From the NCBI GenBank assembly GCA_009746045.1, contig RPFO01000026.1, positions 2,661,065 through 2,725,064 of the forward strand: a stretch of 64,000 bases of DNA. The letters run 5' to 3'. A model generated the notes under the pieces. It saw only the letters and a program-made list of their open reading frames with translations, searched no databases and was not told the DNA's origin. Shown piece by piece: positions 12,917-64,000 of this stretch; position 1 is the stretch's first letter, and each line of letters begins with the position of its first letter. The stretch is from Mesostigma viride (Eukaryota > Streptophyta > Mesostigmatophyceae > Mesostigmatales > Mesostigmataceae). Both the position numbers and the translations under genes were made by a program.

Positions 12917-12989
<73 letters not shown>

Positions 12990-17810: not shown

Positions 17811-17811
17811 G

Positions 17812-18580: not shown

Positions 18581-20955
18581 TTAGACAGCTTGCTGAGATG
18601 GGTCCATCAGAGACTGAAGAACCTTGTACTGCACTGCTGCCTTCTGCACTAGCTTGGTCAAAGCATCAGCAGGATTGTCAACCCCAGGGATATGCTCAAT
18701 ATTGGCCAAGGAGGACAATTCCTTAAGAAGGAGATAATCCAAGTCCCTACTTCTGGCCATCTGCCTGTGCACAAACTGCACCATCCCCATGGAGTCTGTT
18801 TTGAGAAGAGTGGTAACCTGAAGTGGCCAAGGAGTGTTAGTAGAAGTCATCTGATGAAGCAACTCCTTCAGATAAAGGCTTGTGTGAATGCCTTCACAAA
18901 TAGCCCTGCATTCTGCCACATCACTGCTGACAGCCACCCGTTTGTGCAGGCGACTAAACCAGCTCACCAAACTCCCCAGGCCTTCCTGTCTGAGCACAAA
19001 GAGCCCTGCAGCCCTGCCCCTGACCTTGGAGACCTGCCTGCTGTCCATTGAGCTATCCACATACAGCTCCATGCAAATGGGTTGTGATAAATCCACTGCA
19101 GACAACAGAATGCCAGATGAAGCCCTGACCTGATCAGCCACCTTGGCAGACCCTAGCTCCATCAGCATGTCATCAGGCAACCTGGCTATGACCATAAGGT
19201 CTGGCCTGGAAATGCCTGCCACCCAAGCAACCATGCCCCTCACCATGGGACACAGTGCCTGTGTGATGACTGGAGGAAGCTTGCTAATGAGGGTCTCTTG
19301 ATAATCATTGCCCCCCACCAGCAGCATACGCCATTCTCCCCCTTCTTCACCAGTGTGGCCTCCATGCCCACAAACAGCAGAGGCTCATTCTCCACCTGCC
19401 ATTGCTCCCTACCCAGAGGAAACTTGGACTTAATGATGGAGATCAGCTCCTTAAGCCACGACGTGGGAGCCAGCAGGTGCAGGTCATCCCCGTGCAGCGA
19501 AGCATACACTGGTAGGCCTTCCCATTGCCCCAGAAACAGACAGGGGTCTACAGGAGAAACCTTCAAGTTGCAATGCTCCTTCAGGAAACGGTTGAGAGTC
19601 TCCCTCCAGATTATTGGACTTGACCTCAGGCCCTCCAGGCCCTTGAGGATTTTAAGGAACTCAGTGTGAATGTCCCTTTTCCATACAGCAGGCACCCTGA
19701 CATAGAAAGGCGTCTTGCCCTCCCACTTTTCCTGTGCCACATCTGCATCCCCCTCCAGAAATGCCCTCTTGAAGTCTACCACCACTGAGCCATAGTCCAA
19801 GCCCTTGTTGAGAAGGCCTAGAAATACACACAGCAGCAGCCTCCAAGTGTCATGCAACATGCCAGGGGTATACAACTCCTCAGCAGTGCACTCACCAGTA
19901 CCCTTGAACTCATTCAGCACTGGCCTGACATGTGGTACCTTGACCCCGTCCACCTCCTTCATCTTGATGACAAACTTGAGCTTGAGTAGACGTCGTGCAG
20001 GAGGCAGGTCATTGACAGGTTCCACGCATTTCTTGGAGATCCAGTCCTCCCCAGATTTAATCAGACCCAGTGTGACCTGGGGACACATAATGGGAGAGGA
20101 CATGAGCTTCACCAGGCCTTGGTAGTTGATAGGGCTGTGTCCAGCAAGTGAGTGAGGACCAATGCCCAAACTGCTTGGATGACTAGCAGCTGGCAATATG
20201 AGGTCATCAACCAAGGGCTCCTGCCCCTGGCACACTTGCACACGCTTAACCGTCCTGGTTACTGCACGTGATAGGTGAGTGGTCCTGAAATTAATCAGTG
20301 GGACCTGACCAGCCCCTTCCTTAGTCAGGAGAGAGGACGTGATCACTACCCCATCCTGGCATAGGAAATTCTGCCCCAGAAGAGCAGGTCCCTGATAGCC
20401 CTCCAAGACACAAAATGCAGTGTCCTGTCCAAGGATAGGAATAGATACCTCACCCAGTACCTTCACGTGTACCCCGCCACTGAAGTCAGACACAAACTGA
20501 TAGCTGGGCTCAGACATGCTGTACCCTGCTGCAGCTCTGGTCCCAATGATGGAAACCTGAGAATTAGTGTCTACCTCTAAGGCAGTGTCCAGCCTCAGAT
20601 TGCCATGCCACCTGAGCTTGGCTACCTTGGGCTGCTTCTTGGCCCTTTGCAGAGCCCCAATCAATCCAGCCAAACTAGTCCCCCTGGGCTTGGTTAGTAG
20701 AGCCTTGGGCTTGACAGTTGACTCCCCAGCTGTTGACCTTGCAGCCTGTTCAACAAGTACCTCTGCAACCTGGCCAGGGCTGACAGATTCCCCTGCAACA
20801 GATGTGGTCGTTGCGTCAGTGATGTCACCTGGGACCTGAAAATCCTGCAGATCCTGTGAGCCTTGTGCCTGACTGCCCTCATTCATCAGGTTAGGCTTGA
20901 CATATGACCAACTCAGCCGGTGTACATGCTTTGGTTCGTCCTCCATGCTGACCAA
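18581..20955 (-). pseudogene. A1 protease-like domain, RT and RNase H
   Basis: Two overlapping frames on the minus strand. The N-terminal part continues from integrase (PKHVHRLSWSYVK). A retropepsin-like domain follows with TALEVDTNSQVSIIG and GPALLGQNFL, where the usual DTGA is DTNS. RT shows FVIKMKEVDGVKVPHVRPV, VDFKRAFLEGD (first Asp), LEGLRSSPIIWRETL, SPVDPCLFLGQ and YASLHGDDLHLL (HGDD replacing YVDD). RNase H follows after a frameshift near 19320 with ELYVDSSMDS, ECRAICEGIH, LKTDSMGMVQF and GVDNPADALTKL. All four RNase H acidic positions are present. Closest to copia in RT/RNase H, but divergent. Confidence 0.88.
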
Positions 20956-21101
20956 GCATGCGTGGCTAGCTAATCATCAACCTGGGTAACCACCCCAGGA
21001 CTCCAGCTACCACGCTTGCCATGCAGGCTCGGTTCCTTCCAAGCTAGGACCTCTCTGACCCACTTGTGGCTCCAGCATCTTCCAACCCCGGTCCTTCTCC
21101 C

Positions 21102-22216
21102 TCAGCTTGGCAAAGGTGACATGTGCAGCATGTTTCCAGCCCAGAGCACATGTGGGGGGCACAGGCCATATAGATATAGACCCATTGGGCTGACAGCAAC
21201 TCCATCATAGTAGAAATTGACCCTGCTGTTCAGCTGCTGCTCCACGTTCCTCAACCATGCACTCCTGACAAGTGCAGGTGCAGACAAGGGTACCCAGTCT
21301 TCAGAGATGATCAATTTCTTGACCTCCTGGATTGCCCTCTCTATAGCACCCTGCTGCCCATGAGCCTCCCTAGGTGTAACCAGCAACTCAGGAAGGGTGG
21401 GATCACCCTTGAGATGCTGAAACTGCATGTCCACCTGGATCCTTGTGGTAGGAAACTTGGCTCTTACATTCTGCAGGGCAGCCAGCAAGTACCTGTTCTT
21501 CATAGAAGGTAAATGCTCTAGCACCTTGTACTTTGTGTACCTGTCCACGCACACCAACAGTTGCATGCCCCTGATGTGTTGGATATCACACTGCAGATCA
21601 CCAATGCTCTGAGGTAGAGCTTTGGCATGTGATTTCCTGGGCTTGTTGGAGGACAACTGGCACTTACACCGTGAGGCAGCTTGCTGGCACGCCTTGAGAA
21701 GGGGTGCCCTGCCCATACGGAAGGCAAAGTTGTTTGACAGAGAAGTGGCATGCCCAAACATGTTGTGGATTGGGCACCCAACTCCTGGTACACGGAGGAA
21801 GCAGTCCCTGGCACAGTCAGGACTGTGCTGTCAGGTTGTCCAGCATCACCATGCTGACTTCCATCCTCATTTGACTCAGAGCCTGAGTCACCCTGCTCAT
21901 GCCCAATACCTGGACCGCCAGCAGGGACCACATGCATACCACCAGAGGCCTTCACACCCCTCTGTGGTTGTACATTGGTTTCTCTCAAAATGAGAGGTCC
22001 ACCCTCGTGCCCAGCACGAGGATGCATGGGGTCAGACATTCTTACAGCTGCACCAGCTGTCAAGGACGTCTTCGTAGGAACCTGAACCTCTCCAGGTGAC
22101 CTGGGGCCATCCTGAACCTGGAGATCACCCTCTTGTTGCCCAGATATAAAATCTGCATTGGAGCACCTGGCCTCCCCCTTGGGTGAATTAAGGTGTGTAG
22201 GGTTGGCCTCAGACAG
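21102..22216 (-). pseudogene. A1 integrase, after the in-frame UGA
   Basis: The frame continues directly from gag through a single TGA (22217-22219) with no further stop until a frameshift near 21790. The first part is low-complexity and polar. The integrase core then reads LQCDIQHIRGMQLLVCVDRYTKY (first Asp), IQVDMQFQHL (second Asp) and REAHGQQGAIERAIQEV (Glu), with about 29 residues between the last two. A conserved NFYYDGVAVSP segment follows. It is homologous to integrase in B1 and B2. No protease precedes it, unlike Ty1/copia. Near 21102 the frame ends and coding resumes in the protease/RT frame. Confidence 0.85.
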
Positions 22217-26539: not shown

Positions 26540-27507
26540 TTAGACAGCTTGCTGAGATGGGTCCATCAGAGACTGAAGAACCTTGTATTGCACTGCTGCC
26601 TTCTGCACTAGCTTGGTCAAAGCATCAGCAGGATTGTCAACCCCAGGGATATGCTCAATATTGGCCAAGGAGGACAATTCCTTAAGAAGGAGATAATCCA
26701 AGTCCCTACTTCTGGCCATCTGCCTGTGCACAAACTGCACCATCCCCATGGAGTCCGTTTTGAGAAGAGTGGTAACCTGAAGTGGCCAAGGAGTGTTAGA
26801 AGTCATCTGATGAAGCAACTCCTTCAGATAAAGGCTTGTGTGAATGCCTTCACAAATAGCCCTGCATTCTGCCACATCACTGCTGACAGCCACCCGTTTG
26901 TGCAGGCGACTAAACCAGCTCACCAAACTCCCCAGGCCTTCCTGTCTGAGCACAAAGAGCCCTGCAGCCCTGCCCCTGACCTTGGAGACCTGCATGCTGT
27001 CCATTGAGCTATCCACATACAGCTCCATGCAAATGGGTTGTGATAAATCCACTGCAGACAACAGAATGCCAGATGAAGCCCTGACCTGATCAGCCACCTT
27101 GGCAGACCCTAGCTCCATCAGCATGTCATCAGGCAGCCTGGCTATGACCATAAGGTCTGGCCTGGAAATGCCTGCCACCCAAGCAACCATGCCCCTCACC
27201 ATGGGACACAGTGCCTGTGTGATGACTGGAGGAAGCTTGCTAATGAGGGTTTCTTGATAATCATTACCCCCCACCAGCAGCATACGCCATTCTCCCTCCT
27301 TCTTCACCAGTGTGGCCTCCATGCCCACAAACAGCAGAGGCTCATTCTCCACCTGCCATTGCTCCCTACCCAGAGGAAACTTGGACTTAATGATGGAGAT
27401 CAACTGCTTAAGCCACGACGTAGGAGCCAGCAGATGCAGGTCATCCCCGTGCAGCGAAGCATACACTGGTAGGCCTTCCCATTGCCCCAGAAACAGACAG
27501 GGGTCTA
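26540..27507 (-). pseudogene. A2 pol C-terminus (RT palm end and RNase H)
   Basis: An uninterrupted frame of about 320 codons from inside RT to the pol stop. It includes PCLFLGQWEGLPVYASLHGDDLHLL, VENEPLLFVGMEATL, then RNase H with ELYVDSSMDS, ECRAICEGIH, LKTDSMGMVQF and GVDNPADALTKL. It is almost identical to A1 but lacks the A1 frameshift near 19320. It is truncated at 27507, and residues encoded further upstream come from repeat P, not from pol. Confidence 0.88.
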
Positions 27508-27785
27508 GTACATGTTCGGTATTCGCCCGAACATGTCCGTGTTCGGTATGCGGCGGATGTGCCAGCCCTACATAGGCGCCACAACACACTGGACTTTGTA
27601 GGTAGAAAATGTCTGTGGAGACGCTGTGCGTCGCGCTTAAATAATATTTTATAATTTTAATGAAAAGTTTGAAATGTTTTGTAATCGTTATATAAGCTCA
27701 GCCGCTAGGCGGCTGAGCTCAGCCTGACCACAACTGAAGACCAAATTCAAAAAAATTCAAAAATTTCGAAGGCAAAATTCAAAAA
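27508..27785. repeat. End of a P-family repeat
   Basis: Begins with a short hairpin (ACATGTTCGG ... CCCGAACATGT). It then shares about 150 bp with the centre of palindrome P: GGCGCCACAACACA, GTCTGTGGAGACGC, GTGCGTCGCGC and the AGCCGCTAGGCGGCT stem. It lies between truncated A2 and truncated G2 copy 1, both of which end at its borders. Confidence 0.75.
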
Positions 27786-30157: not shown

Positions 30158-30597
30158 GGTAACGCACCTTGTTGGTCTTGAGTAGTCAAATGAGGAGAAC
30201 GAGGAGAAGGCGACTTATCTCGGGTGTCTGAAACCGAACCAGATTGACGACGCACGCAGGGACGAGGTTTCCAGCGCCAGGTGGTCGTAAGTATCCGGTT
30301 TCAAGAATTCTGCGTCCGGCGATGGGTCGTCTAAATACAAAGCAGGCAAGGTGCAGAAAAAGTGTAATCTACGAGACGCTAGTCGTCTCTCTACCGTAGA
30401 ACCAAAACCATCACTTGTCCACGACAGTAAGCAACATTTCTCAGGAAAACAAAACGAGGAAAAGGAGCTATCTATAAAAGGGATTTTCCGCTTCGAGCAG
30501 GTCTATCTTCTAGGCAGGGCGTGTCCCGAATCGGGCAGCACTACCCCCCCAGCTCGCAGGCGACCCGCCCATTACCTCAGTGTCAAGTAGGTGTCGT

Positions 30598-31251
30598 ATT
30601 TGCACAGCAACTCGTCAGCAGAGCTTGTGAGCTCCTGGTCCTTGCCGGCTGGAATGACCCTAGGCTGCTGGCTAGCAACCTTTATCCTCACACCAGGCCT
30701 ACGACCCTCGATAGGCTCGTCACTCGTCGTGACGACCAAGGTTCGTGTGTGAAGACGCTCGTTGCCTCGTTGAGCCTCGAGCTATATGCAACCTCGTTCC
30801 ATCTTTGTTCCTCGGTCATGAGCAACGCTGGGCAACGCTACATTGCCAGAGCCTCGTATCGCTGCCTTGCATCCTCGTTGCAGGCAGCATACAGGAATCT
30901 CTGGCTATCCTGTGTCTAGGACAGCACAGGACCTGCCACAGTCCTGCAAGGACTTACATCCTTGCAGACCTGCTGGCTGGTTACTGGCTTCTACTAGCCA
31001 CAGTACCGTTGAGCCCTCAGTACACTGTGTCCCAGTCACGTGAGAGTCCAGGCTAAGCCTGTGCAGGCACGGCCTGCCACGTGTCCTGTCCACTATGCCC
31101 TGAGTGTGCACCGCCCTCGCCCACCGGTCGGCAGTACTTCGGGACTTGATAACTTTCTAGTCCCTTGTCTGTTCTAGGCGGTTGACACGGCGTTGGAAAG
31201 GTCTCCTCAACCTGCATCCATCTAGCACATTGGTGCCCCAATATGCTAACT
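30598..31251 (-). repeat. 3' LTR of B1
   Basis: 654 bp. On the element strand it starts AGTTAGCATATTGG and ends GTTGCTGTGCAAAT, so it lacks TG/CA ends. The same start at the B2 junction (57161), where the empty G2 site is known, confirms the boundary. A purine-rich tract, AAGAAAGGGTTGG, precedes it (complement of 31252-31264). Confidence 0.92.
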
Positions 31252-32186
31252 CCAACCCTTTCTTGTTTTGGAGCTTGGACCAGCCTGAGAACCTATCAGC
31301 CACTGTCCCCACAAGCCTTCAGACATCTGATCCCTCCCAGAGACCAGACCTGCCTTTTCTTTTGGAACCTGAGGTGCCTCCAAATATTAGCTAGGCCTGC
31401 TCATTGGTTCAAAGGTTGCCCTCTGACCCACATGACATCCCAACCCTTTCTTTGGGAACCTGGTGTAGATTAAAGTTAGGTCTTCACTTAGTCAGAGGAG
31501 TTTGGATAGAGGAGTCCATGAACGTACTATTGTGAGTTCCTGGTCATCCAGTTATCACAGGCGCCCGTTCATATGGCGCCCGCCACGGAGCCTCCTTTAT
31601 CTTTTAAATCCTTCCAAAGACTGAGAGAGCCCTGACAAATGTTAGCCAACACATGGGGAGCCCATGTCCTCACTGAGTCTCACTCAGGATTCATACATGC
31701 CAGGCTGAGGTCAGCTGGGGAATCGAACCCCACCCCATATCCTCCAGGTTTGGATCAGCTCCTGGAACTGAGCATCACAAACAACAAGACATGACAATAA
31801 CAAGATTATGTTTTATTATAAAGGAGTATAACCCATAGTGAGGCCCCTGGCAACCACGTCCAACATGGTCACACAACCAGGGATTTTATTAGCATGCAAC
31901 AGGTTGGTTACAGAGAATATATACAAATGTACAGCAACCTGTTAGAGCCAACACTTGGGCTGCCCTTGCAGGGTCCATTCCATGAAGACCCAAGGCCCAT
32001 TACAAAGTCCTTAAGACTCTTCTGCAGCTCCATGACAGAGCCAGGCGAAATTCTCAGCCAGGGGAGTGACTCCACCCTGACCCCTGTCCAGCAGAGTGTG
32101 TCTGAACTCTGAAGGACCTGCTGTCAGCCACCACGTGGCTGCCCAGCCCACTGGGATGCCTCCCACCTAGAGCAAGGCTGTTTGGT
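31252..32186 (-). other. 3' untranslated region of B1
   Basis: No gene is seen between the pol stop and the polypurine tract. A and B elements share this long 3' UTR layout (A2: 25589-26539). Confidence 0.7.
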
Positions 32187-35100
32187 CTACTCTGGCCCTC
32201 CCCCCTTGGAGGCCATGAGCCCACGAAGCAAAGGGTATTGCAGCTCAGCCTTCTCCTCCAGCTTGGTGAGAGCATCTGCAGGGTTGTCCACGCCAGCCAC
32301 ATGTTCAATGTTAGCTAAGCAAGACATTTCCTTGAGCAACAAATAATCAAGGTCCCTGCTCCTGGCCAGCTGCCTGTGCACAAACTGCACCATGCCCATG
32401 CTGTCAGTTCTTACCAGTGTGTGCATCTGCAACCGACAGGAAGCCACTTGACATAGCTGGTAAAATAGCTCCCTCAAGTAAAGAGCAGTATGAAGCCCTT
32501 CACAGATTGCCCTGCACTCAGCAATGTCACTGCTGGGAGTTACCCTGTTCTGCAACCGACTGTACCAGCAGACCAGAGAGGACTGTTCCTGCACCAGGGA
32601 TATTAATGCTGCTGCACGGCCCCTGACCTCTGTGACCTTCCTACTATCCATAGAACTGTCCACATAGAGCATCATGTCAAAAGGCCTGTACAAATCCAAA
32701 GGACCCAGCATGAGAGGGGGAGACATGCGAACAGCCTCTACCACTCTCTCAGCACCCACCTCAACCAGTTGGGAATCGGTCAACCGACTCAGTACCAACA
32801 GGTCAGGAGCACAAATGCTGGCCAGCCATGCCAACATACCTCGTATTGTTGCACATCTGGCCTGGGTGATGGGCTCCTGCAAGGCATCTATGATCTGCTG
32901 AGGATAATCCTTACCACCCTCCAGCTGGATGGACCATGTACCCTGCTGATGGACCAAGGTCGCCTGCATTCCACAAAACACCATGGGCTCATTCTCAACC
33001 ATGTACTGGATCTTACCCAGTTCAAACCGTTTCTGGATCCTGGCCAGAGTCAACTCTTGCCAAGTGGGATGGCCCAGGAGATGCAGATCATCACCATGCA
33101 GGGAGGCAAACGCTGGCAGCCCCTCATAGCTACCCTGAAACAGACAAGGATCAACTGGAGAGACTGAGAGACCACAGACAGACCTGAGGTACTTCTCCAA
33201 GCTCTTCCTCCAGATGATGGGACTCGATCTAAGGCCTTCCACGCCTTTGAGAATCCTCAAATACCTCGTCTTCAGCTCTGCCCTCCACACTGCAGGCACC
33301 TTAACAAAGAAAGGGGGTATTGTGCGCCAAGTATCCTGTGCTTCCTGCTGATCACCCTTAAGAAAAGCCCTCTTGAAATCTACCAACACAGAGCTATAGG
33401 GTATCCCCTTCTGCAGAAAAGACAAGTAAATGCACAACAAAATCCTCCATGTATCATGCAGCATCCCTGGTGTGTAAAGCTCCTCATCTGCTAACTGTCC
33501 AGTGCCATGGTACTCAGTCACAACTGGTCTAACATGTGGCACCTGCACGCCATCTACCTCCTTGAGCTTGAGGACAAACATCAATCTGAGCAGCTGGTGA
33601 TCCTCAGGGAGGACATCCACAGGCTCTGCACAGTTGGCAACTATCCACTCATGCCCAGAAGCAACAAAGCCAAGAGTCCATGCCTTAGCCATCTTGGGGC
33701 TTTGCATCATCTCCACTAGCTTGCGCCAAGGTACAGGACTCGTTCCTGGGATCTGGTACCTCTGCACACCCAACTCACGTGGGTCAAACGTAGTAGGGAG
33801 GATCAGCAGGTCCCCAGCAATGGGCTCCTTTGTATCAGGACCCTCTGCCTCTAGACCCCTCACAGCCCTTACAGCCACACTAAGACCCTGGGAGTAGCGA
33901 TATCTCTGCAAGGGAAGGCGGCCCTGCCCTTCTAATGCTAGCTCCTCAGAGGATATCCTCACCCCTGGTAAGCACAAGAAGTTCTGACCTAGAATGGCAG
34001 GCCCCTGATACCCTTCAACCACACTGAACGTGGTGGGCACCCCCAGGATAGGCACACTCACTTCTCCCAAGATCTTCATGGACACATTCCCAGAGAAATC
34101 AGACACAGCTAGGCAGCTAGGGGATGACCACTGCAAGCCTGCAGCATCCTCTACCCTTAGAATGGACACCTGTGAGTTGGTATCCACTTCTAGTGCTGGT
34201 GCCCCACATGACCCCCATCCCGTGAGCTTAGATACCTTGGGATCACGCTTGCTGTTCTGCAGAGCTCGAATGATGTCCGCCATAAGCAGCCCCCTGGACT
34301 GTGGTGCAGCCCTGGCCACCTCTGGCCTTGTGACAGACGTCTCAGCAGACTCCTGCTCACCCTCATCCATCCAGGACAGACCATAATCCAAGCATGGTGG
34401 GTTAGCATCTGCTGCCTGGCTCTCATCCTGCTCATCTCCCTCCAAGGGAGGATCAGGGCCGTCTTCAGGCCAGATTGCAGTTGGCCTTCTCTCCTTGACG
34501 TGAGCCCAGGATAGCCTGTACACGTGCTTGGGATTACTCTCCAAAGCCACCAGACAAGAATGGTTAGCTTCCTCAACATGGGTTACCTGCCCATCTTGCC
34601 ACTTGCCACGCTTGCCTGGTAATGACGGTTCCTTCCACATCCTGACCCTCAGTCCCACCTGGGGCCTCAGCATTTTCCAACCCTTGTCCTTACGCCTCAA
34701 TCTGGAAAACACCCTGTCTGCCTTCTTCAGGCAGGCTGCCACCACGTCCTGTGATAGCATACCAAACTGCAATGCCAGGGGAGAGACTGCCACACCATCA
34801 TAGTAATAGGTTACCCTGTGGTTAAGCTGCTCCTCAATCCCCTTACACCAAGCTGCTTTCTCTAGAGCTGATGCCACAACAGGCACACTCCTAGCTGCTA
34901 GCACCACTGTTTTTACTTCACGTATAGATCTCTCTACAGCTCCCTGCTGCCCATGGCATTCCCTAGGGACCACTACCAACTTACAAGGAAGCTGGTCAGC
35001 CAGCTTGATCAAGCAGTCAAACTGCAAGTCAGCTTGCACCTTGGTGTACACCCCAAAGCCTGGCAACAAAGACTGGAGACCCATCAACAGCTGATGCTCC

Positions 35101-35774
35101 TGCATTCCAGGAAGAATGGTCAGCAACCTATATCTGCTAAACCTATCCACCCCCACCAACAGATACATGCCCCTGATGTGTTGGATGTCCACCTGGATAT
35201 CCCCCCGCTCTCTAGCAGGTTCTCTGGCATGGGACTGTGGGAGGCGAACAGCATTCTCCTGACAGACACAATTCTGAGCAGCTGCACTGCAGGCCTCTAG
35301 CAAAGGCTCCTTGCCAATCTTCCAAGCAAACATCTCTGCCTGCTTAGAGTGGCCAAAGATATGGTGTAGAGTGTTTCCAGCCTGAGCATAGCTCAACCCC
35401 CTGTCAGCCTGGCTGCACAGAGAGGAACGTGACAAAGACTGTGTGCTTGGGATAGCACGACCCACCTGCTGTTCTCTTGCTCCAGGGACCTCCTCCAAGG
35501 TAGCTCGGCTCCCAGAGCCAGCCCCGGTTCCCACAGAAGCTGCAGGTCCTTCCAGTCTGGCGGCTTGACTCCCAGAGTCAACCCCAACAACTGGAGACCC
35601 TGCACCTGCCACAGGCACAGGGAATTCCACTGCTGCAGCAGCGTTATTGCAATCATTGAGTGGAAGCACCTCATCATTCCCAACCCCTTGCTGCTGCACA
35701 AGAGGGACACCCCCATTACTATGTACAACTGTTCGTCCCACTAGGGGTGATTGACTATTTACAGGGGACAACAT
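32187..35774 (-). CDS. B1 pol: integrase, protease-like, RT, RNase H
   Basis: An uninterrupted frame of 1195 codons from ATG 35774. Residues 1-130 are low-complexity. Integrase follows with a His/Cys finger (HHIFGH.., then Cys residues) and catalytic D196, D249 and E281 (VDIQHI, ADLQF, GAVERSI). An SH3-like segment with KWQDGQV lies near 380-430. The retropepsin-like domain has EVDTNSQVSI (D531) and GPAILGQNFL. RT shows VDFKRAFLKGD, GLRSSPIIWRKSL and SLHGDD (893-896). RNase H has MLYVDSSMDS, ECRAICEGLH, RTDSMGMVQF and GVDNPADALTKL. In known Ty1/copia the protease precedes integrase; here it follows. The frame is shared with gag and separated by one UGA. Confidence 0.92.
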   Translation of the reverse strand: MLSPVNSQSPLVGRTVVHSNGGVPLVQQQGVGNDEVLPLNDCNNAAAAVEFPVPVAGAGSPVVGVDSGSQAARLEGPAASVGTGAGSGSRATLEEVPGAREQQVGRAIPSTQSLSRSSLCSQADRGLSYAQAGNTLHHIFGHSKQAEMFAWKIGKEPLLEACSAAAQNCVCQENAVRLPQSHAREPARERGDIQVDIQHIRGMYLLVGVDRFSRYRLLTILPGMQEHQLLMGLQSLLPGFGVYTKVQADLQFDCLIKLADQLPCKLVVVPRECHGQQGAVERSIREVKTVVLAARSVPVVASALEKAAWCKGIEEQLNHRVTYYYDGVAVSPLALQFGMLSQDVVAACLKKADRVFSRLRRKDKGWKMLRPQVGLRVRMWKEPSLPGKRGKWQDGQVTHVEEANHSCLVALESNPKHVYRLSWAHVKERRPTAIWPEDGPDPPLEGDEQDESQAADANPPCLDYGLSWMDEGEQESAETSVTRPEVARAAPQSRGLLMADIIRALQNSKRDPKVSKLTGWGSCGAPALEVDTNSQVSILRVEDAAGLQWSSPSCLAVSDFSGNVSMKILGEVSVPILGVPTTFSVVEGYQGPAILGQNFLCLPGVRISSEELALEGQGRLPLQRYRYSQGLSVAVRAVRGLEAEGPDTKEPIAGDLLILPTTFDPRELGVQRYQIPGTSPVPWRKLVEMMQSPKMAKAWTLGFVASGHEWIVANCAEPVDVLPEDHQLLRLMFVLKLKEVDGVQVPHVRPVVTEYHGTGQLADEELYTPGMLHDTWRILLCIYLSFLQKGIPYSSVLVDFKRAFLKGDQQEAQDTWRTIPPFFVKVPAVWRAELKTRYLRILKGVEGLRSSPIIWRKSLEKYLRSVCGLSVSPVDPCLFQGSYEGLPAFASLHGDDLHLLGHPTWQELTLARIQKRFELGKIQYMVENEPMVFCGMQATLVHQQGTWSIQLEGGKDYPQQIIDALQEPITQARCATIRGMLAWLASICAPDLLVLSRLTDSQLVEVGAERVVEAVRMSPPLMLGPLDLYRPFDMMLYVDSSMDSRKVTEVRGRAAALISLVQEQSSLVCWYSRLQNRVTPSSDIAECRAICEGLHTALYLRELFYQLCQVASCRLQMHTLVRTDSMGMVQFVHRQLARSRDLDYLLLKEMSCLANIEHVAGVDNPADALTKLEEKAELQYPLLRGLMASKGGGPE

Positions 35775-35780
35775 CTCAAG

Positions 35781-35783
35781 TCA
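35781..35783 (-). promoter_or_regulatory. In-frame UGA between B1 gag and pol
   Basis: Gag ends CCA-TGA-CTT-GAG-ATG, and both gag and pol use the same frame, so reading through one UGA would give a gag-pol fusion. UGA followed by CU is a known leaky context (UGA-CUA type). B2 is identical here (60726-60728) and A1 has TGA-CTG (22217-22219). Confidence 0.65.
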
Positions 35784-37128
35784 TGGCTTACCCACCTGGC
35801 CAGAGCCTGCTCCAGCAGACTTGGCCTGGTCTGGGCAGTCACGTCGCCAATGACCCGTCCTGCCACATCCAAAGCACTTGTCATCCTTCCCAGCAGCAGC
35901 CTTCTTCAGGCCACCCTGGTTCTGGCTGCTCTGACTGGCCTGGGTGCCCTGGCCCTGGCTCTTGCCTTGCCCTTGGCCACCCTTGTTCTGCTGACCACCC
36001 TGGTGACCACCAGCCTGCTGCTGACCCTTGCCTTTGGATCCCTGCTGCTGGCCCTTGCCACCCTGGTTACCATTCTGCCTGCGCCTGTTAGCCCTCTGAC
36101 GCCTACTAGGTCTGGTTTCTCCCTGAGCACCCTGCCCAGGGGCGTCACCATGGACCTGATGAGCGGAGGCTGAAGGGGCACCAGTCACCTGGATTGCCTT
36201 GCAAGCAGCATTGTCAGATGGACGGATATTGAAAATAACCTTTTGCAAGGCTGGCCACGTCCCATCTGTCTGATCAGCAAACATCCTAGCTGCATTTCTC
36301 CCATCCACACTCAGCCCCATGCGATCCAGGAAGTAATCTGCCACTGCTCTATCAGTCAGATTGAAGCCATGCTTGGCCCCCTTCTCCCTGATGCGTGTGA
36401 GCCGCTGCAGCTCCTCAGCTATTGTGCCCTTGATCTCAAAGGTATCATAGCTGAGCTTATAGTGATTAGTGAGGTTGAGTACCTTATCAGAAACTCCTGA
36501 CGTAGGCCCTCTAGGAACTGAGACCAAGTCAGCTTGTCCTTGACAGCTGCCTAGCCTTGTCCCTCACACGCTCACTTGAATCCCTATTAGTCGTGGATGT
36601 GTGGAATACCTGCACAAGGTTGACAGTGGGATCTACAGAGCATGAAACTAGCTCCATATCCTCCAACCACTTGTCTAGCTCTTCCTGTCCCACAGGAGGC
36701 TTGAGAGGCTTCTGGCCATTCATCACAGCCACAGCACTCATATGAGGTCTAGTCCCAGGCAAAGCACGAGGGTCACTGCCAATGACAGCAGCTCCTACTG
36801 GTGCTAATGGCGCAGGAACATAGCTGCAGGAACACCAGACGCAGGCACACATGGTCTCTTACCAGGTGCTTGACGTTCAGCATCATTCTGGCCCTCCCCC
36901 GTCAGCACCACGCCGTCGGTTGGCCACCCTGCACGCTCCTCCCCTTGTGCCACCTCTTTCCTCTTCCGGTTCGGACGCCCTCCTGCCATTGACGCCCTCT
37001 GCCGTTGGGATCGCCTGTCCCTCTGGCACGACGTTGGCGGGGCCTCCCGTGTCTGCCCTTGCCTCACCCCCGCCTTCCCCCGCTCCTGCCCCGCTCCCGC
37101 TGCCGCCCCCGCGCGTGTTACGAAGCAT
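35781..37128 (-). pseudogene. B1 gag, with small frameshifts
   Basis: Starts at ATG 37128 (MLRNTR). A Gly/Ala-rich leader precedes the capsid-like part: EELDKWLEDMELVSCSVDP, VQVFHTSTTNRDSSERVRDKAR, YDTFEIKGTIAEELQRL and ADYFLDRMGLSVDG. A Gln/Gly/Lys-rich basic stretch and an intact knuckle CFGCGRTGHWRRDC follow, and the end is GQVGKP-TGA-CTT. Compared with B2 there are single-base losses near 36545 and 36492 (which nearly compensate each other) and a shift near 36965. Confidence 0.85.
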
Positions 37129-38341: not shown

Positions 38342-38995
38342 ATTTGCGCAGCAACTCGTCAGCAGAGCTTGTGAGCTCCTGGTCCTTGCCGGCTGGAATG
38401 ACCCTAGGCTGCTGGCTAGCAACCTTTATCCTCACACCAGGCCTACGACCCTCGATAGGCTCGCCACTCGTCGTGACGACCAAGGTTCGTGTGTGAAGAC
38501 GCTCGTTGCCTCGTTGAGCCTCGAGCTATATGCAACCTCGTTCCATCCTTGTTCCTCGGTCATGAGCAACGCTGGGCAACGCTACATTGCCAGAGCCTCG
38601 TATCGCTGCCTTGCATCCTCGTTGCAGGCAGCATACAGGAATCTCTGGCTATCCTGTGTCTAGGACAGCACAGGACCTGCCACAGTCCTGCAAGGACTTA
38701 CATCCTTGCAGACCTGCTGGCTGGTTACTGGCTTCTACTAGCCACAGTACCGTTGAGCCCTCAGTACACTGTGTCCCAGTCACGTGAGAGTCCAGGCTAA
38801 GCCTGTGCAGGCACGGCCTGCCACGTGTCCTGTCCACTATGCCCTGAGTGTGCACCGCCCTCGCCCACCGGTCGGCAGTACTTCGGGACTTGATAACTTT
38901 CTAGTCCCTTGTCTGTTCTAGGCGGTTGACACGGCGTTGGAAAGGTCTCCTCAACCTGCATCCATCTAGCACATTGGTGCCCCAATATGCTAACT
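38342..38995 (-). repeat. 5' LTR of B1
   Basis: 654 bp, differing from 30598-31251 at three positions (near the left end, in GGCTCG[CT]CACTCG and in CCAT[CT]CTTG-type sites). The sequence inside it (CGTACTATTGCTTCC) has no TGG start, so a conventional tRNA 3'-end primer site is not evident. Confidence 0.93.
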
Positions 38996-39080
38996 GTCGT
39001 CTTCATTTTCCCAGTCGCGGAAGGGTTGATTCAATGACGTATGTTGCAGAGGATCGTCGTCTCGCTCTCTATCTAAACTA

Positions 39081-39665: not shown

Positions 39666-39992
39666 GGGACGTAACTGGCGATGCTGATGGTGAGGCGTTT
39701 GTTTCGATGACCGGGGTACTACCTGCTCTCTTTCTGATGCATTTTCATGGTTGCGTTCTTTCCATTTCGCCGAATCCACCTAGTCGCAGCAAAGACATAG
39801 CATAGCGTTGCGTTTTATTTTCTTAGCCGTGCAGGACGCCATCTTCATGGTCCTTCGAATGTCCTGTGTGAACGTCCGTTGCCCAAGGATCTGTGATGCT
39901 TTTTTCTGGAATATACTGGGCTTGGAAAGCCCCTCTGGATGCTTGCCTGGTCACGGGTTTGGGGCGTCATTTACTGCTGTACTGGCTGACAT

Positions 39993-40226
39993 TCATGGTG
40001 CTTTCTGCGTAACGGCTGACTTGCTTCGCACGTGGATTTTCACTGGACTGAAGAGCGCGTCTGCTAGCATGTTTACGTGGTGTATAAGGTGATCAATCAA
40101 CCATTTGTTTATAGAAGGTGTGACAATAGAAGGTGTGTTATATATTTCTTCATCAAGCATGTCAAAAGTAATCTCCACTCGCTTACAACCTGAATTTTGC
40201 TTTGCTGGGTCTGCTGTGTGTCTCAC
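39993..40226 (-). CDS. Short conserved ORF in the left arm of P
   Basis: An open frame encoding CKRVEITFDMLDEEIYNTPS, a duplicated VTPSI, then NKWLIDHLIHHVNML and SPVKIHVRSKSAVTQKAP-stop. The mirror copy at 41351-41569 lacks the five-residue duplication and differs in only a few other residues. The 15-bp length difference keeps frame. Function is unknown. It may be a terminal exon of a spliced gene, since an acceptor-like AATTCAG precedes the conserved part. Confidence 0.4.
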   Translation of the reverse strand: MRHTADPAKQNSGCKRVEITFDMLDEEIYNTPSIVTPSINKWLIDHLIHHVNMLADALFSPVKIHVRSKSAVTQKAP

Positions 40227-41350
40227 TGTGCAGGCTATCCCCTTGGTTTATCAACCAGGTGATTTTTGGTGGCAGCGGGGCCATATACTCTTCTTGGCGT
40301 TTTTCATCCATGGCATGTCAACCGGCAATGAACGCATGCCAGCCCCTAAACAAGAAAACACTATTCCAAAGAATGGAATTCAGGGCATGGTCATGAGCAG
40401 GGTAACAGCAGCATTAATATTAAATGGGCATGATGTAAACAGGAAAACACTAGGTCACGTGAGGAAAGTCTATTTTTATGATCCCAAACAGGCTGGACGT
40501 GTCCGTGTGCCAAATTAATTTGTTTTGTCCGCGCATTTCCGGCGCACGTCGCCGGCCGGACCTTGTGACAGCGCCAGAATTTGTTGTATGACTTCTGAGG
40601 CGCCACAACACAAATGGACTGAGTAGGTAGAAAAATGTCTGTGGAGACGCCGTGCGTCGCGCTGCAATATTTTAATATAATTTTAATGAAAAGTTTGAAA
40701 TGTTTCGTCAACCTTACCTAAGCTTAGCCGCTAGGCGGCTAAGCTTAGCCAAACCACATGTGCAGTTGTGCACATCGATTTCGTCTTTTTTTTTTTGAGA
40801 CTATATCGATGTGCACATGTGGTTTGGCTAAGCTTAGCCGCCTAGCGGCTAAGCTTAGGTAAGGTTTACGAAACATTTCAAACTTTTCAAACATTTCAAA
40901 TTATATTAAAATATTTAAGCGCGACGCACAGCGTCTCCACAGACATTTTTCTACCTACACAGTCCAGTGTGTTGTGGCGCCTCAGAAGTCATACAACAAA
41001 TTCTGGCGCTGTCACAAGGTCCGGCCGGCGACGTGCGCCGGAAATGCGCGGACAATACAAATTAATTTGGCACACGGACACGTCCAGCCTGTTTGGGATC
41101 ATAAAAATAGACTTTCCTCATGTGACCTAGTGTTTTCCTGTTTACATCATGCCCATTTAATATTAATGCTGCTGTTACCCTGCTCATGACCATGCCCTGA
41201 ATTCCATTCTTTGGAATAGTGTTTTCTTGTTTAGGGGCTGGCATGCATGCGTTGGTTGACATGCCATGGATGAAAAACGCCAAGAAGAGTATATGGCCCC
41301 GCTGCCACAAAAAATCACCTGGTTGATAAACCAAGGGGATAGCCTGCACA

Positions 41351-41569
41351 GTGAGACACACAGCAGACCCAGCAAAGCAAAATTCAGGTTGTAAGCGAGT
41401 GGAGATTACTTTTGACATGCTTGATGAAGAAATATATAACACACCTTCTATAAACAAATGGTTGATTGATCACCTTACACACCACGTAAACATGCTAGCA
41501 GACGCGCTCTTCAGTCCAGTGAAAATCCACGTGCGAAGCAAGTCAGCCGTTACGCAGAAAGCACCATGA
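41351..41569 (+). CDS. Short conserved ORF in the right arm of P
   Basis: Mirror image of 39993-40226 encoding the same CKRVEITFDMLDEEIYNTPS ... AVTQKAP peptide. No homologue recognised. It could be an exon of a transposon gene, or be kept identical only by gene conversion between the arms. Confidence 0.4.
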   Translation: MRHTADPAKQNSGCKRVEITFDMLDEEIYNTPSINKWLIDHLTHHVNMLADALFSPVKIHVRSKSAVTQKAP

Positions 41570-41906
41570 ATGTCAGCCAGTACAGCAGTAAATGACGCCC
41601 CAAACCCGTGACCAGGCAAGCATCCAGAGGGGCTTTCCAAGCCCAGTATATTCCAGAAAAAAGCATCACAGATCCTTGGGCAACGGACGTTCACACAGGA
41701 CATTCGAAGGACCATGAAGATGGCGTCCTGCACGGCTAAGAAAATAAAACGCAACGCTATGCTATGTCTTTGCTGCGACTAGGTGGATTCGGCGAAATGG
41801 AAAGAACGCAACCATGAAAATGCATCAGAAAGAGAGCAGGTAGTACCCCGGTCATCGAAACAAACGCCTCACCATCGGCATCGCCAGTTACGTCCCGTGG
41901 CAAAAA

Positions 41907-57160: not shown

Positions 57161-57814
57161 AGTTAGCATATTGGGGCACCAATGTGCTAGATGGATGCAG
57201 GTTGAGGAGACCTTTCCAACGCCGTGTCAACCGCCTAGAACAGACAAGGGACTAGAAAGTTATCAAGTCCCGAAGTACTGCCGACCGGTGGGCGAGGGCG
57301 GTGCACACTCAGGGCATAGTGGACAGGACACGTGGCAGGCCGTGCCTGCACAGGCTTAGCCTGGACTCTCACGTGACTGGGACACAGTGTACTGAGGGCT
57401 CAACGGTACTGTGGCTAGTAGAAGCCAGTAACCAGCCAGCAGGGCTGCAAGGATGTAAGTCCTTGCAGGACTGTGGCAGGTCCTGTGCTGTCCTAGACAC
57501 AGGATAGCCAGAGATTCCTGTATGCTGCCTGCAACGAGGATGCAAGGCAGCGATACGAGGCTCTGGCAATGTAGCGTTGCCCAGCGTTGCTCATGACCGA
57601 GGAACAAGGATGGAACGAGGTTGCATATAGCTCGAGGCTCAACGAGGCAACGAGCGTCTTCACACACGAACCTTGGTCGTCACGACGAGTGGCGAGCCTA
57701 TCGAGGGTCGTAGGCCTGGTGTGAGGATAAAGGTTGCTAGCCAGCAGCCTAGGGTCATTCCAGCCGGCAAGGACCAGGAGCTCACAAGCTCTGCTGACGA
57801 GTTGCTGTGCAAGT
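57161..57814 (+). repeat. 5' LTR of B2
   Basis: 654 bp, equal in length to both B1 LTRs and differing from them at only a few positions. Confidence 0.93.
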
Positions 57815-57837
57815 CGTACTATTGCTTCCACGCTTTC

Positions 57838-58788
57838 ATGTCTGGTTCATCGTCAAGCAGCCACGGTGCTGGTGAGGCGAACGAGCAGAGAGACGCGCAA
57901 GCGTTTTTCCCCTACCGTAACCAAGCAAACGCTCCAACATTCGTGCAAGCGGCCTACGTAGCGAGGCACTTGGCAGAAGAGGGGTGGGTGGCGGTGAGTG
58001 GGGGAGGCAGCAGGCCAGCGGCGGCGGACCCGATTATTCAACGGGCTCGCGTCGTGATTTCTCCAGGTGAGACGGGGCGAGTGGCGGTGGAAGAGTTGGT
58101 GCGGCTACGTGACGCGCTAGCTGAAACTGCTAATCGTGTGGAGGTCGCCTACCAGGGCGCCCATATCACACTAGCCGGTCTCGACCTAGCCAGGGAGGCG
58201 CTTAGCCAGATTGTGGCAACAGCGCTCGGCAGCACCCGGCTGTTTAACCACTGGGTGGCGACAGCGGTGCTAGGAGAGGGGGTACCAGACGCCGACATCA
58301 TCCGGAACGCGCGTGCTCGGGAGACGGTAAATCCTTGGAGCACGGCAGAGGTATTTGCCCAAACAATTGAGAATCTTGTTGCTGTCCTTTTGCAAGAGTC
58401 GAGAGGGTACGCAGACAGGTTCTATATTACCACGCAGCCTTTCGGGGTCTACTCAAGGCTTGATACGCCGAGGCCGGAAACCACCACTGCGTGGGGTCCG
58501 GAGGTGAAGATTGTCACGGGGGTCGAGAAGACGCCTGAAGACGTCCATTTTGAGTGGACTGACAAGCCAGAGGGCTCCGTCAAGCGCTCAGCCCAGCAGA
58601 TAAACCAGGGCGACGGCACTACCGAGACCTACGAGGAGAGGCAGAGAGCTGATCTGCATTTCCCTCGTGAGGTGACTCACGAGTACGACCGTTACGGCCG
58701 AGGCGAGCAGAACGAGCTTGTCGGCGGCGGTAAGCGGTGGGTGCGCGATCTTGCTAATTGGCATCGCAACCCAGGTGAGAGACCGTGA
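57838..58788 (+). CDS. B2 5' ORF, unknown function
   Basis: 316 codons from ATG 57838, the first ATG after the LTR, to TGA 58786. An open frame extends back into the LTR but only from a TTG. The protein starts Ser/Gly-rich, then YRNQANAPTFVQAAYVARHLAEEGWVAV, a probable helix-rich middle (VEELVRLRDALAETANRVEVAYQGAHITLAGLDLAREALSQIV region) and TTQPFGVYSRLDTPRPE. No known domain. It is not part of the gag frame, and GC is higher than in gag-pol. A 134-bp deletion relative to B1 (at about 58775) shortens the C-terminus. A gag-like or accessory role is possible. Confidence 0.6.
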   Translation: MSGSSSSSHGAGEANEQRDAQAFFPYRNQANAPTFVQAAYVARHLAEEGWVAVSGGGSRPAAADPIIQRARVVISPGETGRVAVEELVRLRDALAETANRVEVAYQGAHITLAGLDLAREALSQIVATALGSTRLFNHWVATAVLGEGVPDADIIRNARARETVNPWSTAEVFAQTIENLVAVLLQESRGYADRFYITTQPFGVYSRLDTPRPETTTAWGPEVKIVTGVEKTPEDVHFEWTDKPEGSVKRSAQQINQGDGTTETYEERQRADLHFPREVTHEYDRYGRGEQNELVGGGKRWVRDLANWHRNPGERP

Positions 58789-59898
58789 GGAGGGGCAGGC
58801 GAGTGCAAGCCAGGAGGCGGCCTCGTCTGGAGTAAGTGCGTGAGCCTGAGGGGGTTCCAGCAGCCATATCTGCGTGTGTTTTCTGTGGTATTCTATAATG
58901 CTTCGTAACACGCGCAGGAGCGGCAGCGGGAGCGGGGCGGGAGCGGGGGATGGCGGTGGTGAGGCAAGGGCAGACACGGGAGGCCCCGCCAACGTCGTGC
59001 CAGAGGGACAGGCGATCCCAACGGCAGAGGGCGTCAATGGCAGGAGGGCAGCCAACCGGAAGAGGAAAGAGGTGGCACAAGGGGAGGAGCGTGCAGGGTG
59101 GCCAACCGACGGCGTGGTGCTGACGGGGGAGGGCCAGAATGATGCTGAACGTCAAGCACCTGGTAAGAGACCATGTGTGCCTGCGTCTGGTGTTCCTGCA
59201 GCTAATGTTCCTGCGCCATTAGCACCTGTAGGAGCTGCTGTCATTGGCAGTGACCCTCGTGCTTTGCCTGGGACTAGACCTCATATGAGTGCTGTGGCTG
59301 TGATGAATGGCCAGAAGCCTCTCAAGCCTCCTGTGGGACAGGAAGAGCTAGACAAGTGGTTGGAGGATATGGAGCTAGTTTCCTGCTCTGTAGATCCCAC
59401 TGTCAACCTTGTGCAGGTATTCCACACATCCACGACTAATAGGGATTCCAGTGAGCGTGTGAGGGACAAGGCTAGGCAAGCTGTCAAGGACAAGCTGACT
59501 TGGTCTCAGTTCCTAGAGGGCCTACGTCAGGAGTTCTCTGATAAGGTACTCAACCTCACTAATCACTATAAGCTCAGCTATGATACCTTTGAGATCAAGG
59601 GCACAGTAGCTGAGGAGCTGCAGCGGCTCACACGCATCAGGGAGAAAGGGGCCAAGCATGGCTTCAATCTGACTGACAGAGCAGTGGCAGATTACTTCCT
59701 GGATCGCATGGGGCTGAGTGTGGATGGAATAAATGCAGCTAGGATGTTTGCTGATCAGACAGATGGGACGTGGACAGCCTTGCAAAAGGTTATTTTTAAC
59801 ATCCGTCCATCTGACAATGCTGCTTGCAAGGCAATCCAGGTGACTGGTGCCCCTTCAGCCTCCGCTCATCAGGTCCATGGTGATGCCCCTGGGCAGGG

Positions 59899-60372
59899 AG
59901 TTACGTTAAATAGTGCCGGAACCTTTTGCCGCCTGAGGCAAATCGGTCCGTAACACTATTTTGCCCGGAATAACCACTTCCGAGCACCCAAGTTAATTCG
60001 GCCGAATTAACTTGGGTGCTCGGAAGTGGTTATTCCGGGCAAAATAGTGTTACGGACCGATTTGCCTCAGGCGGCAAAAGGTTCCGGCACTATTTAACGT
60101 AACTAAAACCTGGCCTCGTGGAGGGGGGACGAAGAGCCCGAGACATCCGCCTAGGCCGCTGAGCACGCACCACTAAATGCGCCGGAGCTGCCTCAGTAAG
60201 GATTCGAACCCCTGACCTCCAAGGTGCACGGGTTTTAGTTACGTTAAATAGTGCCGGAACCTTTTGCCGCCTGAGGCAAATCGGTCCGTAACACTATTTT
60301 GCCCGGAATAACCACTTCCGAGCACCCAAGTTAATTCGGCGGCAAAAGGTTCCGGCACTATTTAACGTAACT
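59899..60372. mobile_element. Composite palindromic MITE inserted in B2 gag
   Basis: 474 bp with ends AGTTACGTTAAATAGTGCC and its inverse, flanked by a 5-bp TSD CAGGG (59894-59898 and 60373-60377). The empty site is intact in B1 gag. 59899-60104 is a perfect 206-bp palindrome centred at 60001/60002. 60237-60372 is a second copy with an internal deletion in one arm. A 132-bp spacer (60105-60236) lies between them and has AAAACC / GGTTTT ends. No coding capacity. Confidence 0.93.
60200..60210 (-). promoter_or_regulatory. Pol III B-box-like / tRNA T-arm motif
   Basis: The complement reads GGTTCGAATCC, a perfect B-box consensus, preceded by AGGTCAGG, which resembles a tRNA variable loop. No matching A-box, D-arm or anticodon stem could be folded, so this is a tRNA-3'-half-like relic in the MITE spacer, not a tRNA gene. 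Confidence 0.5.
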
Positions 60373-60734
60373 CAGGGTGCTCAGGAAGATCCCAGGCCTA
60401 GTAGGCGTCAGAGGGCTAACAGGCGCAGGCAGAATGGTTTAACCAAGGTGGCAAGGGCCAGCAGCAGGGATCCAAAGGCAAGGGTCAGCAGCAGGCTGGT
60501 GGTCACCAGGGTGGTCAGCAGAACAAGGGTGGCCAAGGGCAAGGCAAGAGCCAGGGCCAGGGCACCCAGGCCAGTCAGAGCAGCCAGAACCAGGGTGGCC
60601 TGAAGAAGGCTGCTGCTGGGAAGGATGACAAGTGCTTTGGATGTGGCAGGACGGGTCATTGGCGACGTGACTGCCCAGACCAGGCCAAGTCTGCTGGAGC
60701 AGGCTCTGGCCAGGTGGGTAAGCCATGACTTGAG

Positions 60735-63700
60735 ATGTTGTCCCCTGTAAATAGTCAATCACCCCTAGTGGGACGAACAGTTGTACATAGTAATGGGGGT
60801 GTCCCTCTTGTGCAGCAGCAAGGGGTTGGGAATGATGAGGTGCTTCCACTCAATGATTGCAATAACGCTGCTGCAGCAGTGGAATTCCCTGTGCCTGTGG
60901 CAGGTGCAGGGTCTCCAGTTGTTGGGGTTGACTCTGGGAGTCAAGCCGCCAGACTGGAAGGACCTGCAGCTTCTGTGGGAACCGGGGCTGGCTCTGGGAG
61001 CCGAGCTACCTTGGAGGAGGTCCCTGGAGCAAGAGAACAGCAGGTGGGTCGTGCTATCCCAAGCACACAGTCTTTGTCACGTTCCTCTCTGTGCAGCCAG
61101 GCTGACAGGGGGTTGAGCTATGCTCAGGCTGGAAACACTCTACACCATATCTTTGGTCACTCTAAGCAGGCAGAGATGTTTGCTTGGAAGATTGGCAAGG
61201 AGCCTTTGCTAGAGGCCTGCAGTGCAGCTGCTCAGAATTGTGTCTGTCAGGAGAATGCTGTTCGCCTCCCACAGTCCCATGCCAGAGAGCCTGCTAGAGA
61301 GCGGGGGGATATCCAGGTGGACATCCAACACATCAGGGGCATGTATCTGTTGGTGGGGGTGGATAGGTTCAGCAGATATAGGTTGCTGACCATTCTTCCT
61401 GGAATGCAGGAGCATCAGCTGTTGATGGGTCTCCAGTCTTTGTTGCCAGGCTTTGGGGTGTACACCAAGGTGCAAGCTGACTTGCAGTTTGACTGCTTGA
61501 TCAAGCTGGCTGACCAGCTTCCTTGTAAGTTGGTAGTGGTCCCTAGGGAATGCCATGGGCAGCAGGGAGCTGTAGAGAGATCTATACGTGAAGTAAAAAC
61601 AGTGGTGCTAGCAGCTAGGAGTGTGCCTGTTGTGGCATCAGCTCTAGAGAAAGCAGCTTGGTGTAAGGGGATTGAGGAGCAGCTTAACCACAGGGTAACC
61701 TATTACTATGATGGTGTGGCAGTCTCTCCCCTGGCATTGCAGTTTGGTATGCTATCACAGGACGTGGTGGCAGCCTGCCTGAAGAAGGCAGACAGGGTGT
61801 TTTCCAGATTGAGGCGTAAGGACAAGGGTTGGAAAATGCTGAGGCCCCAGGTGGGACTGAGGGTCAGGATGTGGAAGGAACCGTCATTACCAGGCAAGCG
61901 TGGCAAGTGGCAAGATGGGCAGGTAACCCATGTTGAAGAAGCTAACCATTCTTGTCTGGTGGCTTTGGAGAGTAATCCCAAGCACGTGTACAGGCTATCC
62001 TGGGCTCACGTCAAGGAGAGAAGGCCAACTGCAATCTGGCCTGAAGACGGCCCTGATCCTCCCTTGGAGGGAGATGAGCAGGATGAGAGCCAGGCAGCAG
62101 ATGCTAACCCACCATGCTTGGATTATGGTCTGTCCTGGATGGATGAGGGTGAGCAGGAGTCTGCTGAGACGTCTGTCACAAGGCCAGAGGTGGCCAGGGC
62201 TGCACCACAGTCCAGGGGGCTGCTTATGGCGGACATCATTCGAGCTCTGCAGAACAGCAAGCGTGATCCCAAGGTATCTAAGCTCACGGGATGGGGGTCA
62301 TGTGGGGCACCAGCACTAGAAGTGGATACCAACTCACAGGTGTCCATTCTAAGGGTAGAGGATGCTGCAGGCTTGCAGTGGTCATCCCCTAGCTGCCTAG
62401 CTGTGTCTGATTTCTCTGGGAATGTGTCCATGAAGATCTTGGGAGAAGTGAGTGTGCCTATCCTGGGGGTGCCCACCACGTTCAGTGTGGTTGAAGGGTA
62501 TCAGGGGCCTGCCATTCTAGGTCAGAACTTCTTGTGCTTACCAGGGGTGAGGATATCCTATCCTCTGAGGAGCTAGCATTAGAAGGGCAGGGCCGCCTTC
62601 CCTTGCAGAGATATCGCTACTCCCAGGGTCTTAGTGTGGCTGTAAGGGCTGTGAGGGGTCTAGAGGCAGAGGGTCCTGATACAAAGGAGCCCATTGCTGG
62701 GGACCTGCTGATCCTCCCTACTACGTTTGACCCACGTGAGTTGGGTGTGCAGAGGTACCAGATCCCAGGAACGAGTCCTGTACCTTGGCGCAAGCTAGTG
62801 GAGATGATGCAAAGCCCCAAGATGGCTAAGGCATGGACTCTTGGCTTTGTTGCTTCTGGGCATGAGTGGATAGTTGCCAACTGTGCAGAGCCTGTGGATG
62901 TCCTCCCTGAGGATCACCAGCTGCTCAGATTGATGTTTGTCCTCAAGCTCAAGGAGGTAGATGGCGTGCAGGTGCCACATGTTAGACCAGTTGTGACTGA
63001 GTACCATGGCACTGGACAGTTAGCAGATGAGGAGCTTTACACACCAGGGATGCTGCATGATACATGGAGGATTTTGTTGTGCATTTATTTGTCTTTTCTG
63101 CAGAAGGGGATACCCTATAGCTCTGTGTTGGTAGATTTCAAGAGGGCTTTTCTTAAGGGTGATCAGCAGGAAGCACAGGATACTTGGCGCACAATACCCC
63201 CTTTCTTTGTTAAGGTGCCTGCAGTGTGGAGGGCAGAGCTGAAGACGAGGTATTTGAGGATTCTCAAAGGCGTGGAAGGCCTTAGATCGAGTCCCATCAT
63301 CTGGAGGAAGAGCTTGGAGAAGTACCTCAGGTCTGTCTGTGGTCTCTCAGTCTCTCCAGTTGATCCTTGTCTGTTTCAGGGTAGCTATGAGGGGCTGCCA
63401 GCGTTTGCCTCCCTGCATGGTGATGATCTGCATCTCCTGGGCCATCCCACTTGGCAAGAGTTGACTCTGGCCAGGATCCAGAAACGGTTTGAACTGGGTA
63501 AGATCCAGTACATGGTTGAGAATGAGCCCATGGTGTTTTGTGGAATGCAGGCGACCTTGGTCCAACAGCAGGGTACATGGTCCATCCAGCTGGAGGGTGG
63601 TAAGGATTATCCTCAGCAGATCATAGATGCCTTGCAGGAGCCCATCACCCAGGCCAGATGTGCAACAATACGAGGTATGTTGGCATGGCTGGCCAGCATT

Positions 63701-64000
63701 TGTGCTCCTGACCTGTTGGTACTGAGTCGGTTGACCGATTCCCAACTGGTTGAGGTGGGTGCTGAGAGAGTGGTAGAGGCTGTTCGCATGTCTCCCCCTC
63801 TCATGCTGGGTCCTTTGGATTTATACAGGCCTTTTGACATGATGCTCTATGTGGACAGTTCTATGGATAGTAGGAAGGTCACAGAGGTCAGGGGCCGTGC
63901 AGCAGCATTAATATCCCTGGTGCAGGAACAGTCCTCTCTGGTCTGCTGGTACAGTCGGTTGCAGAACAGGGTAACTCCCAGCAGTGACATTGCTGAGTGC
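60735..64000 (+). pseudogene. B2 pol, with a 5-bp frameshift and open right end
   Basis: Homologous along its whole length to B1 pol, in the same order: integrase (VDIQHI, ADLQF, GAVERSI), protease-like EVDTNSQVSI (GAT at 62325) and ILGQNFL, RT VDFKRAFLKGD and SLHGDD (about 63418-63430), and the RNase H start MLYVDSSMDS. The frame is lost at 62552-62561, where ATCCT is duplicated relative to B1, and a stop follows at 62574-62576. Beyond it the sequence stays open in the shifted frame to the window end inside RNase H. Confidence 0.9.

Follow-up and report, generated by a model that had tools for sequence, protein, structure and literature searches.

The B1 element and its pol frame

The window analysed here is the whole stretch of 64,000 nucleotides from the streptophyte alga Mesostigma viride (GenBank assembly GCA_009746045.1, contig RPFO01000026.1, positions 2,661,065 to 2,725,064). 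It holds B1, an LTR (long terminal repeat) retrotransposon of a copia-related lineage, whose pol gene carries an integrase, a retropepsin-like domain, a reverse transcriptase and an RNase H region in this unusual order (Table 1). The two LTRs are 99.5% identical across 654 bp in an ungapped local alignment, which points to a fairly recent insertion, and they are enclosed by a 5-bp target-site duplication, within the 4-6 bp looked for in an LTR retrotransposon. The LTR and duplication boundaries place the termini at AG...AT and not at TG...CA; TG...CA ends are usual among LTR elements, not universal. Inspection by eye, the only search made for a primer binding site, revealed none that was evident.

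Table 1. Features of B1 and of the related copies in the window
Feature	Position	Strand	Details
B1 5' LTR	38342..38995	-	begins AGTTAGC, ends CAAAT
B1 3' LTR	30598..31251	-	paired with the 5' LTR by local alignment
Target-site duplication, 5' side	38996..39000	-	ACGAC; flank sequence
Target-site duplication, 3' side	30593..30597	-	ACGAC; flank sequence
Possible polypurine tract	31252..31270	-	purine-rich, precedes 3' LTR; putative, from sequence
B1 gag frame, C-terminal part	35781..36527	-	CCHC zinc knuckle; zf-CCHC E=1.3e-05, residues 217-232
B1 gag-pol junction	35772..35783	-	TGA CTT GAG ATG; from sequence
B1 pol frame (P0001)	32187..35774	-	1195 aa, uninterrupted
Integrase zinc-binding motif	35262..35366	-	H-x4-H-x26-C-x-C; residues 137-171
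Integrase catalytic core	34932..35225	-	residues 184-281; D196, D249, E281
Retropepsin-like domain core	33969..34199	-	residues 526-602; DTNS 34173-34184; ILGQNFL 33975-33995
Reverse transcriptase	32775..33617	-	residues 720-1000; RVT_2 and motif; HGDD 33087-33098
RNase H and C-terminal region	32190..32666	-	residues 1037-1195; YVDSSMDS ... NPADALTK
B-family ORF1, upstream of gag	57814..58788	+	324 codons; open in B2, broken in B1
Copy B2	57161..64000	+	cut by window end
Copy A2	18581..21830	-	integrase 21102-21830; protease to reverse transcriptase 19240-20973 (DTNS, HGDD); RNase H 18581-19384
Copy A1	26540..27589	-	truncated; reverse transcriptase end with HGDD, and RNase H only

An earlier sequence-only reading had described the pol frame as one run of 1195 codons. 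Its coordinates were right, and the minus strand is added here; the three catalytic residues of the integrase, the DTNS and ILGQNFL motifs (DTN from residue 531, GQNFL from 596) and HGDD (from 893) are all as it had described them. For comparison, stop-free frames in 20 mononucleotide shuffles of the window reached 300 codons at most. Further upstream the gag frame of B1 is broken, and a longer gag frame is present in the second B copy, B2 (58850-59953). The gag stop and the pol start share one frame and are separated by 6 nt, the junction being identical in B2. The further open reading frame (ORF) of the B family, ORF1, was not matched with confidence by any Pfam family (DUF2442 at E=0.047).

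An AlphaFold model of the whole pol protein was of low confidence (mean pLDDT, the predicted local distance difference test score, of 34.9; 1071 of the 1195 residues below 50, the integrase part included), and its use was limited to the integrase match. Integrases made up 49 of the 50 entries among the structure matches listed, the exception being an RNase H3 at residues 852-919. Six of ten aligned members of the lineage matched RVT_2 with E no higher than 1, the best value being 3e-07; the match of P0001 itself, at E=0.0022, fell under the curated cut-off. RVT_1 is absent from the four families listed. By these sequence comparisons, a copia-type reverse transcriptase is supported for the lineage. 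The RNase H region is conserved in the relatives, with RVT_3 (E=0.032) matched in one of the ten members only, and we take residues 1037-1195 to be a copia-type RNase H from their motif pattern. A sequence search of solved structures with the whole of P0001 returned three Ycf54 structures (E 0.4-0.7), which were taken as chance.

Relatives of the pol protein

Two protein searches were made, and as each scored only about 7,990 candidates, those sharing most words with the query, more relatives may exist. The first search gave a single full-length homologue, P0003 (from an ENA source), which has 1214 aa and 47% identity over 89% of P0001; it has the same domain order, with DTNA instead of DTNS and with HGDD. 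The second search added six shorter homologues, of which four are entries for Prorocentrum lima (a dinoflagellate) and Mesostigma viride. The two Mesostigma viride proteins cover 54% and 10% of the query and are 86% and 92% identical to it, respectively. The EukProt entry P0004, filed under Prorocentrum lima, is identical to B1 pol in 314 of 315 residues (32751-33692), which may reflect contamination of a data set or transfer of the element between hosts.

HGDD is found in all seven alignment rows that reach the site, three of the ten rows falling short; these seven amount to about five distinct sequences, as P0004 is a repeat of B1 and P0006 closely resembles A2. Likewise, all four copies in the window carry HGDD, with none expected by chance. 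A frame break near 62576 divides the pol of B2; ahead of it 608 of 608 residues are identical to B1, and beyond it 479 of 481. The frames of A2 are broken, with a domain order colinear with that of B1. The claim that the A family shares the changed motifs therefore holds in full for A2; A1 has HGDD, and being truncated to the end of the reverse transcriptase and the RNase H it is uninformative on the protease. Both the order and the odd motifs are preserved in relatives of about 50% identity. Hence, these are an old lineage trait and not decay, as had been proposed, and P0003, from another source, bears this out.

The wider searches gave no further members. The phage tblastn with P0001 gave no match, and the scan of viral contigs with P0001 no pattern match. 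With A2, 45 stretches of viral contigs and 113 of genome contigs fitted the pattern, none of them a relative. A degenerate DNA pattern for ASLHGDDLH[LF] was found in no viral contig. Two contigs of bacterial metagenome-assembled genomes that fitted it were rejected as chance (best tblastn E of 0.008 over 21 residues and of 0.038), the former also on account of its other ORFs.

The domain between integrase and reverse transcriptase

There is moderate evidence, from modelling and alignment, for a retropepsin-like domain at this position. The best structural matches to its predicted model are filled by retropepsins, although the model is of low confidence. In the alignments to retropepsins that were listed, its Asp falls on the catalytic Asp and its LG on the conserved Gly turn. 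DTN[SA] is present in three of three alignment rows that reach the site, and LGQNFL in four of four. The identity between B1 and P0003 is 49% in this core, compared with 42% in the integrase, 59% in the reverse transcriptase and 56% in the RNase H. Between B1 and A2, the core has a proportion of nonsynonymous differences (pN) of 0.267 and of synonymous differences (pS) of 0.793; synonymous sites are saturated and only the direction of the difference is safe. As pN lies below pS, the core was under constraint.

B1 beside known elements

The domain order of pol is a basis on which LTR elements are classified. B1 resembles Ty1/copia elements in its RVT_2-type reverse transcriptase, an integrase that precedes the reverse transcriptase and RNase H, the H-x4-H zinc motif, LTRs with a 5-bp duplication and a CCHC gag. 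It differs from them in having DTN where they have DSG or DTG of a D-S/T-G-A protease motif, HGDD for the usual YVDD, C-x-C for C-x2-C in the integrase zinc motif, 29-31 residues instead of 35 from the second Asp to the Glu of the integrase, and AG...AT termini. The Ty1/copia order is protease, integrase, reverse transcriptase, RNase H; B1 and P0003, and colinearly the broken A2, have the integrase ahead of the protease, a departure that depends on the domain being a retropepsin. The Ty3/gypsy order, with the integrase last, is not found either, since the integrase comes first in B1 pol. Clan AA retropepsins (the gypsy gag-asp_proteas type and Ddi1) have the fold predicted, at low confidence, for the B1 domain and share its Asp-Thr and LG turn; the B1 domain differs from them in its Asn for the catalytic-loop Gly and in its position.

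A changed order of pol domains is also seen in the Ty3/gypsy element Gmr1, in which the protease reportedly stays first. Gmr1 of Goodwin and Poulter (2002) is a gypsy element with a copia-like order and a precedent for altered order (PMC2774666; cited in PMC3587641). The shrimp copia element CoRex1 has, like B1, an altered protease motif (DTGC in place of DSGA) and an H-x4-H integrase zinc motif; unlike B1, it has the usual copia order (PMC3587641). The DIRS-Dnmt3 elements of Symbiodinium, a second precedent, are dinoflagellate retroelements with reportedly differing pol domain orders; they are tyrosine-recombinase DIRS elements, not LTR/copia ones (PMC5890265). The usual order is given for selected diatom copia elements (PMC2806351) and the gypsy order for Troyka (PMC12440569), and a dinoflagellate review mentions heat-activated Ty1-copia elements in Symbiodinium microadriaticum (PMC11453091). 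A plant survey gives GAG-PROT-INT-RT-RH for 5410 copia elements, counts TG/CA ends among the features behind its de novo predictions, and discarded elements with an unexpected domain order in every case as likely mispredictions (PMC6317226). Such a survey would miss an element like B1 twice, once for its termini and once for its order. The titles and abstract openings retrieved name no element with the B1 order, which is a thin ground for claiming novelty.

Interpretation

B1 is probably a copia-related element in which the central retropepsin matures Gag-Pol. Of the order claimed in the sequence-only reading, the upstream integrase core and the copia-type reverse transcriptase stand, and the protease stands at the moderate strength given above. 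Pol would be made from the gag RNA, with ribosomes either reading through the UGA-C stop or re-initiating at the ATG that follows 6 nt later. Two pol chains may pair through the central domain, which would then cut on either side of itself and free the integrase and the reverse transcriptase-RNase H. The ancestral front protease may have been lost, with a retropepsin, either moved or drawn from a gypsy-like or cellular source, taking over at the integrase-reverse transcriptase junction. The life cycle would otherwise be that of an ordinary LTR element; this outline of cycle and domains draws on the anatomy and on established knowledge of LTR elements.

One point weighs against a working protease: Asn replaces the Gly of the D-T/S-G catalytic loop in all three sequences that reach the site. 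Asn is often able to replace Gly in tight turns, but retropepsins are intolerant of substitution at their catalytic-loop Gly. Owing to this intolerance, the main alternative is a catalytically inactive retropepsin fold, kept as a dimerisation or linker module, with processing by a host protease or not needed. The Gly substitution favours it, as does the rest of the element, where a motif search of the internal region in the minus frames accepted no canonical D-T/S-G protease. However, neither the Asp-Thr nor the LGQNFL turn varies among the rows that cover them, and purifying selection acts on the core, for which a simple linker gives no obvious reason. An inactive module appears unlikely. It is less probable again that the domain is no retropepsin, with DTN and ILGQNFL a chance likeness in another conserved beta-rich domain; the weak statistics, the low-confidence model and the missing Pfam match of P0001 itself speak for this, whereas several imperfect lines of evidence favour retropepsins, the alignment of the Asp and the LG among them.

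A true protease between the gag knuckle and the integrase, or in gag, would leave an ordinary copia order with an extra domain. The pattern hydrophobic-D-[ST]-[GN]-[ASTC] occurs at two sites of the region searched, DTNS and a DSGS at pol residues 66-69. The DSGS is preceded by VVGV in B1, and A2, a broken copy, has the string too, in a different frame. However, its surroundings are rich in Gly, Ala and Ser, with 25% identity to P0003, which has no motif there, and neither pol nor the gag piece has a Pfam protease match; this candidate was rejected, and the explanation is very improbable. Hardly credible is an assembly or recombination artefact, or a decayed normal copia element: the neighbourhood is rich in repeats, with broken copies and palindromes, but the same order recurs in P0003 and A2, and the 1195-codon frame is open and under purifying selection.

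If the central domain works, Gag-Pol maturation can proceed without a protease ahead of the integrase, and the Gly of a retropepsin is not indispensable. A broader claim is possible and distinctly more tentative, namely that B1 belongs to an undescribed copia-derived lineage, with entries filed under a dinoflagellate and a streptophyte, in which a gypsy-like or cellular retropepsin with a working DTN loop replaced the front protease at the integrase-reverse transcriptase junction. If true, it would mean one more order of pol domains for LTR elements, together with a new variant of the active site.

Other features of the window

The LTR of B2 differs from that of B1 in its last bases (CAAGT). 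Relative to B1, the gag region of B2 has an insertion (59899-60372); the B1 matches on its two sides have an overlap of 5 bp. The insertion, perhaps a foldback element related to a tRNA, contains a perfect 206-nt palindrome, repeated pieces and GGATTCGAACCCC, which resembles a tRNA T-arm read backwards. Scans of the window with Rfam (at the gathering threshold) and for tRNAs returned nothing. A nested palindrome of 2.2 kb (39666-41896) has outer arms of 457 nt that are 100% complementary, and about 0.7 kb separates it from the 5' end of B1. Further along, a plus-strand frame of 545 codons (43286-44923), possibly a host gene, begins with what looks by eye like a signal peptide; no Pfam family matched it at E up to 0.1.

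By colinearity, a gypsy element of about 14.9 kb (3452-18396) sits inside A2, whose 3' part continues at 3451-1960. Its 585-bp LTRs (3452-4035 and 17812-18396) are 99.7% identical, and it carries a chromodomain and a canonical VDTGAS protease. A CAG-type run within it (12125-13293) translates, in overlapping frames, into long tracts of poly-Q, poly-A and poly-S. The 3' region of A1 contains a tandem pair of about 320 bp with 95% identity (24653-25321).
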